DNA of 37,601 bases from Acidimicrobiales bacterium (GTDB lineage: Bacteria; Actinomycetota; Acidimicrobiia; Acidimicrobiales; Iamiaceae). Where the stretch lies: contig JAGQSO010000172.1 in NCBI GenBank assembly GCA_020439505.1, forward strand, positions 1 to 37,601, in the 5' to 3' direction. The notes beneath the pieces were generated by a model. The model was not told where the DNA came from and did no database searches. It saw only the letters and a list, made by a program, of their open reading frames with translations. Both the position numbers and the translations under genes were made by a program. Positions within the stretch are counted from its first letter, which is position 1, and each line of letters opens with the position of its first letter. Below are positions 12,047-17,521 of this stretch, one piece after another.

Positions 12047-13057
12047 GTGGCTCCCTCCAGCGGCTCGATCCGGGTGGTGTTCTGGAACACCTGGCTGCTG
12101 CGACCCCGTCTGTGGCCCGACGGACCTTCCCTGCCCCTCTCCGATCAGATCTTCGCCCCCGATGTCTCCCGACGCGCTCCACTGGTGGGACAGGCCCTGG
12201 CCGGCCGTTTCGACGTCTGTGCCTTGGCCGAGGTGTTCGACCGTCGCGAACAGGAGGCGGTGACCGAACAGTGGGACGACCTGGAGGTCGCGCTCGGGCC
12301 CGACGACTCGGGCATGTTGCGGCGAGTGGGTAGCGGCCTGATGACGTTGGTCGACCCCCTGGCCCTCGAACTGGTGGACACGGCGACGCTGGCGTTCTCG
12401 GCCGGCGGCGACTTCCGAGACTCCGACAGCTACGCCACCAAGGGTGTGCTCTTCGTGCGGGTCCGGCTCCCCGGGGGGATCGAGGTCGACCTGGCCTCCA
12501 CCCACCTGCTGGCGGGAGGGGAGTTCCTGCCCATCCCCGGCTCGGGTGACCACCAGCGCCACCACCGGGCCCGGATGGCTCAGGTCGACGAGTTGGTGGA
12601 GTTCGTGGGTCGGCACCGCAACCAGGAGAACCCGTTGTTGGTAGTCGGTGACTTCAACGTCGCCCGCCACGACCGTCGGCTGCGGGGAGACACCGAGGCC
12701 TACCACCGGGACCTTCTCGACCACCTGTCGCCCCTCGACGTGTCCGACGTGTGGTCCACCCACGGGATCGGCACCGGACCGACGGCCAGCTTCCGTGACG
12801 CGGTCGAACTACCCCGGGACCCGGTGCTCGCCGACTGCGTCGTCGACGACCCCGATGAGAGCACCGACCGGCCCGGCCCCGGTGACCGGATCGACTACCT
12901 CTGGTACAGCCCGCCGTGGCGTCGGGCCCGCACTCGAGCCGAACTGGACCGGCCGCGGCGGTGGGCCTTCCCGGGGCGGGCCGCCCGCGGCGGCCCCGGC
13001 GGAAGCCTCTCGGACCACCTGGCCCTGTCGGTGACCCTTCACCTCAACCGCCGATGA
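12047..13057 (+). CDS. Endonuclease/exonuclease/phosphatase (EEP) fold hydrolase
   Basis: A 336-residue metal-dependent phosphodiesterase of the superfamily that includes DNase I, ExoIII and neutral sphingomyelinase. Family motifs appear in order: Asn14 in WNTW, Glu62 in LAEVFD, STHLLAGGEF, Asp202 and Asn204 in GDFNV, DRIDYLWY, and SDHLAL with His324 as the likely catalytic base. The active site looks complete. No signal peptide is seen, so it is probably cytosolic. The spacing and the STHL motif resemble sphingomyelinase-like members more than ExoIII, but the substrate cannot be assigned. The stop overlaps the next gene's ATG by four bases (ATGA). Confidence 0.88.
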   Translation: MAPSSGSIRVVFWNTWLLRPRLWPDGPSLPLSDQIFAPDVSRRAPLVGQALAGRFDVCALAEVFDRREQEAVTEQWDDLEVALGPDDSGMLRRVGSGLMTLVDPLALELVDTATLAFSAGGDFRDSDSYATKGVLFVRVRLPGGIEVDLASTHLLAGGEFLPIPGSGDHQRHHRARMAQVDELVEFVGRHRNQENPLLVVGDFNVARHDRRLRGDTEAYHRDLLDHLSPLDVSDVWSTHGIGTGPTASFRDAVELPRDPVLADCVVDDPDESTDRPGPGDRIDYLWYSPPWRRARTRAELDRPRRWAFPGRAARGGPGGSLSDHLALSVTLHLNRR

Positions 13058-15283: not shown

Positions 15284-15289
15284 TACCCT
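15284..15289 (+). promoter_or_regulatory. Leaderless -10 hexamer of the membrane-tethered sigma gene
   Basis: TACCCT lies 9 bases before GTG 15299 with no Shine-Dalgarno sequence between. It helps fix the start at 15299 within an open frame that extends far upstream. Confidence 0.45.
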
Positions 15290-15298
15290 GGGTTTCCG

Positions 15299-17521
15299 GT
15301 GACGGCAGCCAGCGACTCCCCCGCTACCCCTCCGCCGCCTTCCGGGCCCCTCCCCACCGAAGGACCGCAAGGCGCGCGCCTGGCCGTTTCGGCGCGCCCC
15401 GCCGCGATGGCCGCAGCGACCCGGACCCCACCGCCCGAGGTGGAGATCAAGCTGGTCATGGCGGCCCGCCGAGGCGATCCGGCTGCCTTCGCCCGGATGA
15501 TCGAGCACTGGGACGCCCACCTCCGCCCCTTCGTGCACCATGTGCTCGGCGGAGAGGGATCCACCGACCGCGCCTTGTCGGCGGCCTACGTCCGGGCCTA
15601 CCGGGCCCTCCCCCGCTATGACGCTTCCCAGCGGCCGGGTCTGTGGCTCCACCGGATCGCCTACCTGGCCGCCACCGACGAGCTCCGCCGGGTGGCGCGC
15701 GACCCGGCCCGCCGCCGTGCCCTGGCCGACGCTGGGCCGTCTCGGACCCACGCCGACGACATCTTCACCCCGACATCGGACATCGACCCGACGGCCGACG
15801 ATGAGGTCGAGAGCGCGATCATCGAGGCGCGGGCCCTCATGGGGCACGCCGAGGAAACGGGGACCACGGGTCTACCAGCGGGTTGGAAAGCCCTGGCTCC
15901 AGATCAGCGGGCGCTGGCCGTCCTCGTGGACCTGGAGGGGCACACCATCAAGGACGCCGCCCGGACCCTCGACGCCACCACCGAGCGAGCGGCGGACCGG
16001 CTGGAGGCCACCCGGCGGCTGCTGGCCCGGGTGGGTGGTGTGAGCCGCGACGGAGCGGACTCCACCGAGGACGTCGTCGAGGCGTCGGAGGTAGGCGATC
16101 TGATCGGGCGTCTTCCGGTTCCACCGGCGCCGGCTGGCTTCTGGCCGATGCTGGGCCGCCGTCTACTGGCTGAACGGGCTGCGCCCGCGGCGGCCGCCAT
16201 CGACCCCCGTGAGCTCCTGGCCCGGACCCACCCGTCCGAACCCGGGTTCCACCCCGACCCCGACGCGCCGACAAACGGCGTTGGAACATCGGTGCGGGAC
16301 CTGGCTGTTCACGCCGGTCGGGTTCGGCCCCGTCGGGATCTGCGCCGGGCCGGGGTGATCGTCATCGTGTTGGTGGTGGTTGCCGCCCTCGTTGCGGTGG
16401 CCGTCAAGGTGGGTACAAGCTCCCGGGTACCCGACGGCACGGTGGCCGCGGCCGAATTGGCACCCAAGGTCTCCAACGCCATGGCCGACGGTTCGTTCCG
16501 TCGGGTTCGCACCGCCGTCACCGAGACCGACGCCACCGGACGACGGACCGAACGGCGCTACCAACTCGTCCTCGCCGACGACGGCTCTTGGGCGGTCTCC
16601 ACCGAGGGGACCATCGACCAGACCACCTACGACGTCACCGACGGCCTGCTTCGACGGGTGGCGGTGATCGGCCAGGGAGAAAACGCCGAGGTGTTCGCCA
16701 CCGACGCCACGGGACTGGCGGCGGGATCGCCCGACCCCGGTCCCACCGAGCCGGTACCCCTCGACGACCTGGGCGCGCTTCCCTCACTCCTCCGCTCCGC
16801 CGGCCAGACCCGGATGAACCGGGCCACCCTGGGAGAATCAGCCGTGTACACCCTCGAGGCCGATCGCCCCACCGGCCCCCGTGACGACGTCGAGCACTGG
16901 ACGGTGAGCGTGGCGGCGTCGACGTCGCTACCGGTGGAGATCGTGCGCCGGGAGGGAGACCGTGAGGTCCGACGCATCCGGGTGTTGTCGTGGACGACTA
17001 CGCCGGAGGTTCCCGCCGCCAGCTTCCGCCAGCCGATCCCCGACGGCGCCCGTTCCACGTCGGCGACGAGCGGTTTCACCGCGACCGACCTGACCGCGGT
17101 GCCCCTGCTCGGCAGGGGCGACGCCGTGAACCCCGGCTGGTTGCCCGGTGGTTTTGAGATGACGGTGGTGGCCGTCAGGGCCGAAGCACCCAGCGGGATC
17201 CCCTCCACGGGGGCAGGACGGAACCCAGCCGACGTGGCGGTGCTGTCGCTCGGATATCAGCGGGGACCCGAACGCATCGTGGTGACCACCCGCGCCGCTG
17301 GCACCGACCCCACGGCATGGGTCTCTCCGTTCACCCCCGGGCCGGGAACGCCCAAGGCCCGCAGCCTCGGGGACGGCATGTTCAACGGTGCCCGGGTGGA
17401 GGTTTCCACCGACGCCCGGGGCCGCTCCCACCTGTGGGGGGTCAGCGGCGACACCGTGTTCACGGTGGCCGGCGACGTGACCCCCGATCAGGCAGTTCGG
17501 ATCGCCGCGTCGCTCCGCTAG
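15299..17521 (+). CDS. ECF-type sigma factor fused through one membrane helix to an RseB-like extracytoplasmic domain
   Basis: A 740-residue protein with an unusual layout. Residues 1-45 are Pro/Ala-rich. Residues about 48-140 resemble sigma region 2 (LVMAARRGDPAAFARMIEHW, later LHRIAYLAATDELRRVARD). Residues about 193-245 resemble region 4, with LAPDQRALAVLVDLEGHTIK and a helix-turn-helix-like ARTLDATTERAADRL. A linker leads to a single hydrophobic helix at about 345-365 (VIVIVLVVVAALVAVAVKVG), preceded by arginines, so the sigma part faces the cytosol. Residues about 375-740 lie outside. Part of this region (VEHWTVSVAASTSLPVEIVR, then VLSWTTTPEVPAASFRQPIP, then PGWLPGGFEMTVV) resembles the LolA/RseB-type sensor fold and its C-terminal domain. 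No separate anti-sigma gene follows. Sigma activity is inferred. Confidence 0.8.
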   Translation: MTAASDSPATPPPPSGPLPTEGPQGARLAVSARPAAMAAATRTPPPEVEIKLVMAARRGDPAAFARMIEHWDAHLRPFVHHVLGGEGSTDRALSAAYVRAYRALPRYDASQRPGLWLHRIAYLAATDELRRVARDPARRRALADAGPSRTHADDIFTPTSDIDPTADDEVESAIIEARALMGHAEETGTTGLPAGWKALAPDQRALAVLVDLEGHTIKDAARTLDATTERAADRLEATRRLLARVGGVSRDGADSTEDVVEASEVGDLIGRLPVPPAPAGFWPMLGRRLLAERAAPAAAAIDPRELLARTHPSEPGFHPDPDAPTNGVGTSVRDLAVHAGRVRPRRDLRRAGVIVIVLVVVAALVAVAVKVGTSSRVPDGTVAAAELAPKVSNAMADGSFRRVRTAVTETDATGRRTERRYQLVLADDGSWAVSTEGTIDQTTYDVTDGLLRRVAVIGQGENAEVFATDATGLAAGSPDPGPTEPVPLDDLGALPSLLRSAGQTRMNRATLGESAVYTLEADRPTGPRDDVEHWTVSVAASTSLPVEIVRREGDREVRRIRVLSWTTTPEVPAASFRQPIPDGARSTSATSGFTATDLTAVPLLGRGDAVNPGWLPGGFEMTVVAVRAEAPSGIPSTGAGRNPADVAVLSLGYQRGPERIVVTTRAAGTDPTAWVSPFTPGPGTPKARSLGDGMFNGARVEVSTDARGRSHLWGVSGDTVFTVAGDVTPDQAVRIAASLR

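Follow-up and report, generated by a model that had tools for sequence, protein, structure and literature searches.

A predicted sigma-like module fused through a conserved FW box and a membrane helix to an RseB-like ectodomain in an Iamiaceae bacterium

What does a sigma factor fold do when it shares one polypeptide, predicted to span the membrane, with an RseB-like sensor and lacks the residues that grip RNA polymerase? The question is raised by a gene in a stretch of 37,601 nucleotides from an Acidimicrobiales bacterium of the family Iamiaceae (assembly GCA_020439505.1, contig JAGQSO010000172.1), the whole of which is referred to below as the window. From the N- to the C-terminus, the encoded chain consists of a start segment, σ2, a linker, σ4, a helical segment with an FW motif, a transmembrane (TM) helix and a two-domain ectodomain. 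The start is probably disordered judging from the structure model, in which both it and the linker between σ2 and σ4 were of low confidence. One protein would in this way combine a sigma fold with its inhibition, the sensing of a signal and the passage through the membrane. Tentatively, we regard it as a self-inhibited membrane switch, whose sigma-like module would be freed by proteolytic or conformational release and would then probably bind another regulator, not act as a classical sigma factor. The parts of the gene are as follows.

15299..17521, forward strand: fused chain (sigma, anti-sigma box, TM helix, RseB-like part), 740 amino acids, GTG start, stop included
15431..15730, forward strand: sigma2-like domain, residues 45-144 (Pfam, profile, model)
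15560..15583, forward strand: place of the DxxDxxQE motif, residues 88-95
15884..16036, forward strand: sigma4-like domain with an altered recognition helix, residues 196-246
16082..16228, forward strand: residues 262-310, a putative anti-sigma-like segment in the cytosol that contains the box VPPAPAGFW (274-282)
16343..16417, forward strand: membrane helix, residues 349-373 (hydropathy and model)
16436..17068, forward strand: predicted LolA-like first domain, residues 380-590 (profile, model)
17087..17518, forward strand: predicted second ectodomain domain, residues 597-740 (limit drawn by eye on the model and the alignment)

Parts of the chain and their conservation

A reading of the sequence alone had placed sigma regions 2 and 4 in the N-terminal part, and this is borne out by Pfam, by the profile of the alignment A1 and by the structure model. 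The database search yielded 41 matching proteins, including P0002, which is the window's own protein; A1 consists of 38 rows, namely P0001 and 37 of these 41 proteins (P0002, P0004, P0011 and P0017 were omitted). The σ2 of the window scored 24.2 bits with Sigma70_r2, barely above the cut-off of 24, and its σ4 12.3 bits with Sigma70_r4_2, under the cut-off of 25.7, while at E ≤ 0.01 these families were matched by 36/38 and 13/38 of the A1 rows, respectively. Compared with known structures, the A1 profile matched AlgU (E 1.5e-15) and RpoE (E 1.5e-14), both sigma regions being covered. The chain possesses σ2 and σ4 folds without σ3 (σ4 by profile and model), as is characteristic of extracytoplasmic function (ECF) sigma factors. 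The predicted arrangement of the two is nearest to that of ECF structures solved together with an anti-sigma factor, and PhyR/NepR was found among the structural matches; the absence of a polymerase-bound ECF from the 50 structural matches listed, which are Foldseek's choices only, carries no evidential weight.

No anti-sigma part had been recognized in the sequence-only reading, which overlooked a conserved box between σ4 and the helix. The family form of this box is VPxxxxxFW, and its F281 and W282 are invariant in 38/38 rows. Judging from the operon partners described in the next section, the box may play an anti-sigma role, and it likely holds the sigma part off. A zinc anti-sigma domain was considered and ruled out, as there is no cysteine among the 740 residues of the window's chain; the same is true for 25/38 A1 rows, the window included. 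The single membrane helix, noticed already at first reading, was detected by hydropathy in 38/38 rows (with additional weaker peaks in P0024 and P0028), the model placing it at residues 349-373, and the Arg-rich flank on its N-terminal side points to an N-in orientation by the positive-inside rule.

The outer part comprises 366 residues (about 375-740 in the model). Its proposed LolA/RseB fold can now be specified as the two-domain RseB/MucB type, with a LolA-like first domain and a small C-terminal one: the ectodomain profile matched only MucB in the PDB (3/3 matches), and with the ectodomain model (pLDDT 93) RseB/MucB structures took Foldseek ranks 1-13. The Pfam family DUF4367 matches 6/19 ectodomains and six other families match one member each; the window's own ectodomain gave no Pfam match at E ≤ 0.1. 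A second RseB-like protein was not found in the same genome at E ≤ 10. Sigma regions 2 and 4, the LolA/RseB fold and the helix in the homologues, on which the first assignment depended, were thus all recovered.

The mean pairwise identity of the 38 A1 rows was 0.715 in σ2, 0.667 in the FW segment, 0.579 in the second ectodomain domain, 0.527 in σ4, 0.434 in the TM helix and 0.406 in the LolA-like domain. The NG86 ratio of nonsynonymous to synonymous substitution rates (dN/dS) of σ2 was 0.11-0.27 in 6/6 Aquihabitans-type pairs, 0.35-0.50 in 4/4 pairs from genus g2 and 0.56 in the single other pair, all these values being rough, since dS was often near or above 1. The ratio of the LolA-like domain exceeded that of σ2 in 11/11 pairs, and σ2 had the lowest ratio of all parts in the Aquihabitans-type pairs except for the tie-like pair W-L053 (0.27 vs 0.24 in the FW segment). 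By these measures σ2 is under constraint and is not decaying, despite its changed classical contacts. A decaying sigma remnant is ruled out for the Aquihabitans type by the conservation of σ2, genus g2 with its higher ratios being less clear. The anti-sigma-touching surface of σ2 showed no special conservation (0.813 vs 0.818), an uninformative comparison.

Contact positions and two-gene relatives

The motif DxxDxxQE is described in PMC13147305 as the core-polymerase contact in region 2.2 of ECF sigma factors. The window protein lacks it, having S88, R91, S94 and A95 at the four positions (0/4 kept). For the comparison of fused chains with free sigma factors, the misaligned L039, L044 and L091 and a neighbouring open reading frame (ORF) in L063 were removed, merging of identical cores left 52 free and 51 fused sequences, and Asp was scored as equal to Glu. 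At least three positions were kept in 43 of the free sigmas, two in 8 and one in 1; among the fused ones at least three were kept in 0, two in 3, one in 11 and none in 37. The mean net charge of residues 88-95 changed accordingly from -2.58 in the free to -0.45 in the fused sequences. The Arg at position 237 in region 4.2 is present in 49/52 free vs 8/51 fused sequences, and the Asn at position 123 in 39/52 vs 0/51; in RpoE this Asn reads the -10 element. The sigma regions had earlier been called divergent. This holds insofar as the contacts are changed, but the change is family-wide and falls on polymerase- and promoter-contacting positions of a strongly conserved σ2. Because the polymerase-gripping residues are lost, the sigma part probably works in an unusual way and is probably no longer a classical sigma factor.

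The same order of parts is also found distributed over two genes. In L007 and L009 (genomes G197 and G221, from another family of the class) a sigma gene with an intact motif overlaps the next gene by 4 nucleotides, and this second gene encodes the FW box, a membrane helix and an RseB-like ectodomain. In a survey of 396 genomes of the phylum, 25 had an RseB-like match at E ≤ 0.001, with a sigma match directly upstream of the RseB-like gene in L100, L101, L106 and L110; most other RseB-like loci had no sigma match within the fetched stretch. The sigma of L100 has the intact motif, and its partner carries a variant box, ADFYPLL. The operons of L007, L009 and L100 resemble the window's chain in the order of parts over overlapping or adjoining genes, but they consist of two genes and their sigmas keep a DxxQ(D/E)-type motif and the Arg residues of region 4.2.

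The box ahead of the helix was found in the next-gene products of 11/55 free sigmas (10 FW, 1 YW). The scan covered 60 free sigma entries, of which 5 were without a usable next ORF; among the 55 scored are duplicates (L002/L078, L003/L089), and in a few of the partners the helix is not clear. A tree was built from 55 fused and 47 free rows after removal of 13 rows. A single branch separates the fused sigmas from the free ones (98/93; 97% of 200 bootstrap trees), which is consistent with a single origin of the fusion. The free sigmas nearest to them adjoin genes whose products open with the box and, in some Actinomycetota, bear the RseB-like part as well, and the sigmas of the 11 box-bearing partners fall outside a group of 35 rows formed by the remaining free sigmas. 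As the midpoint root falls within the fused rows, the tree alone is silent on which form came first; the fusion is the likelier derived form because the two-gene form is wider spread and its motif is intact. The ancestor was likely a two-gene operon of a sigma gene and a gene for a membrane anti-sigma factor that already bore the RseB-like part. Since the two-gene form persists in the phylum, the steps of the fusion are readable.

In L106 (2-2475) the sigma gene is followed by one whose product has a Cys-containing anti-sigma-like start (zinc-type, by eye), a helix and an RseB-like ectodomain, so by eye the same kind of ectodomain stands on a different anti-sigma type. L102 (1138-2424) and L103 (1240-2394) encode RseB-like proteins of about 400 amino acids, with no sigma match within the fetched stretch; these are possibly free-standing sensors or lipid carriers.

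Known counterparts and proposed mechanism

The RseB system consists of three separate proteins, RseB being soluble and periplasmic. The window's chain resembles RseB/MucB, RseA/MucA and RpoE/AlgU in that its ectodomain matches RseB/MucB and its sigma part AlgU and RpoE; unlike RseB/MucB, its RseB-like part is not a separate soluble protein but follows a membrane helix within the sigma polypeptide, and this in an actinobacterium. That ECF groups with membrane-spanning C-terminal extensions exist had been stated correctly at first reading, sigma/anti-sigma fusions being described in passages of PMC8999054 and PMC5411451. IutY of Pseudomonas putida (ECF243) unites in one polypeptide an ECF sigma, an anti-sigma region outside the cytoplasm and a membrane helix, and is cut by Prc and RseP with release of the sigma (PMC5411451). 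The window's chain similarly joins a sigma part and a putative membrane anti-sigma in one polypeptide, the latter role of the FW box being inferred; in contrast, IutY is, by the same text, a proven sigma factor of the aerobactin response in cell-surface signalling, while the window's chain has an RseB-like part and lacks the polymerase-contact motif. ECF48, ECF52 (SCO4117) and ECF53 of Actinobacteria have membrane-spanning C-terminal extensions thought to be anti-sigma, for which proteolytic release is proposed (PMC8999054). The window's chain shares with them an extension with one or two helices (one, at 349-373), but their extension contains a zinc finger, in SCO4117 also a carbohydrate-binding domain, whereas the chain has an RseB-like part and neither cysteine nor a zinc-finger domain. 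The pairing with an RseB-like domain could not be placed earlier, and this ectodomain is indeed the part missing from the fusions described in these texts: the terms "RseB" and "Acidimicrob" have 0 occurrences in the main text of PMC8999054, and no sigma fused to an RseB-like domain was found in the literature titles and abstract beginnings listed, although the 2021 ECF re-classification may contain such a group. The new part in the light of these sources is therefore the combination with the RseB-like ectodomain, membrane-spanning sigma/anti-sigma fusions as such being already known.

In the self-inhibited switch that we tentatively propose, the FW box would keep the sigma-like module off in cis. 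An outside signal acting on the RseB-like part would lead to proteolytic or conformational release of the module from the box, and the freed module, without the usual polymerase-contact residues, would bind another regulator. The ligand may be a lipid or lipoprotein, by likeness to RseB, MucB and LprG; MucA-MucB binding is antagonised by lipid signals (PMC7400510), and regions 2.1-2.2 are the shared binding place of class I anti-sigmas and the β′ clamp (PMC7406223). The genome has matches to M50 proteases. In view of the changed contact positions, the earlier proposal of a tethered sigma released by an outside signal is one reading among several and may be wrong.

It is nevertheless quite possible that the chain is a functional ECF sigma tethered to the membrane, only its polymerase interface being changed: an envelope signal on the RseB-like part would start stepwise proteolysis, and the released sigma would initiate transcription at its own promoters, like IutY. 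Besides the precedents of IutY and the ECF48/52/53 fusions and the M50 proteases of the genome, several observations argue for it and weigh against the proposal above: region 2.3-2.4 is near-invariant across A1, W116 and R119 are each kept in 47/51 fused rows, the acidic residue at position 90 (D90; D/E in 49/51) persists, and σ2 has the lowest dN/dS save in the W-L053 case. On the other hand, 0/51 fused rows reach three of the four DxxDxxQE positions, Asn 123 is gone in 51/51 and Arg 237 in 43/51. In the four members of genus g2 (L006, L057, L058 and L059) σ2 is far more changed, W116 and R119 of region 2.3 being lost too. ECF sigmas often autoregulate, whereas the box upstream of the gene (see below) resembles an ordinary TANNNT element.

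We favour a mimic or another non-classical role, as the chain has been retained even in members that have lost more sigma residues. One form of it, which we consider rather doubtful, is a transmembrane sigma mimic: a conserved pseudo-sigma that binds neither polymerase nor promoters and is freed by the RseB-type sensor to capture an anti-sigma or other regulator. In that case an envelope signal would be turned into a partner switch by a single chain, which would be a kinase-free counterpart of PhyR. PhyR of Alphaproteobacteria likewise has an ECF fold in which the promoter and core-polymerase regions are degenerate, and its sigma-like domain titrates NepR; unlike the window's chain with its outer sensor and helix, for which no NepR-like partner is known, it has a receiver domain and is released by phosphorylation (PMC8103513). 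Degenerate contacts are thus common to both, while a C-terminal receiver domain had no Pfam match in the chain. No trans partner was found for the sigma module, 7/15 other Sigma70_r2 matches of the host lying outside the scoring. If the chain is a true pseudo-sigma, it would represent a second route, beside PhyR, from ECF folds to non-transcribing regulators, and a caution against scoring all ECF-like genes as sigma factors.

It is unlikely that the sigma module never leaves the FW box and serves as a structural cap or dimerisation part, the sensor acting outside in lipid or lipoprotein handling. RseB-like proteins without a sigma match within the fetched stretch (L102, L103 and others), the strongly changed sigma of genus g2 and the resemblance of the predicted arrangement to anti-sigma-bound ECFs would suit such a cap, but conservation is highest in σ2 and not in the ectodomain, and free relatives combine the same kind of ectodomain with intact-motif sigmas.

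A kinase-controlled sigma, in which S88 or T89, once phosphorylated, would provide the negative charge for polymerase binding again and the ectodomain would be only a tether, is highly improbable: Ser/Thr occurs at 88 or 89 in 42/51 fused vs 4/52 free sigmas and ECF43 has a phospho-Thr within the same motif, but the phosphosite of EcfK (third residue of QATE) corresponds to position 90, here D/E in 49/51 (both sites after PMC13147305), positions 94 and 95 are changed as well, and a scan of 7 neighbouring genes revealed no kinase.

Gene start, neighbourhood and distribution

A chance ORF or annotation error was ruled out, both modules being present in one translated frame in 16/24 genomes of the family. 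The ORF is not a chance one because of the 41 database matches, the 38 aligned rows and the low σ2 dN/dS in all six Aquihabitans-type pairs; the opposite strand of 15299-17521 contains stops in the same register. The GTG start agrees with the homologues P0003 and P0005, which open with MTA, and is preceded by the following element.

15284..15289, forward strand: TACCCT (TANNNT box), 15 nucleotides 5′ of the GTG

In 7/7 Aquihabitans-type genes examined, a TANNNT box precedes the GTG at -15 or -14, mostly as GGTACNNT. It was not seen in the more distant genes of L057, L059 and L060, and no site could be placed in L005 and L061. Its sequence suggests a promoter element of housekeeping type, from which a leaderless transcript would start.

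The gene is flanked by a short-chain dehydrogenase gene upstream and a TetR gene downstream, both on the reverse strand, the latter followed by an S15-type peptidase gene; in L034 and L035 matches to all three neighbours surround the gene in this order, and in L036-L038 some of the neighbours are matched. No partner gene is evident in this neighbourhood.

In the host family the fusion was found in 17 of 24 genomes (16 translated in one frame and G413 by the search table alone), G396 carries the parts in two frames, and 6/24 genomes had no match. Two of the window's own genus, G403 and G404, are 96-98% complete and had no match to the fused chain, an apparent loss. Five loci of named records hold the parts of the fusion, including Aquihabitans sp. 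G128 (Aquihabitans, Iamiaceae; complete genome NZ_CP077604.1), in which the frame of the sigma part differs from that of the FW-TM-RseB part, the switch falling within the linker (L038, 7001-9282); the split is either genuine or due to a sequencing error. Since their matches are equal and the genus labels agree, G396 is presumably the same as G128, and the genome of the window presumably a near relative. Elsewhere in the window, a serine hydrolase gene of the beta-lactamase family (PF00144; 12916-14190) adjoins a gene of the endonuclease/exonuclease/phosphatase family (12047-13057), both being ordinary neighbours.
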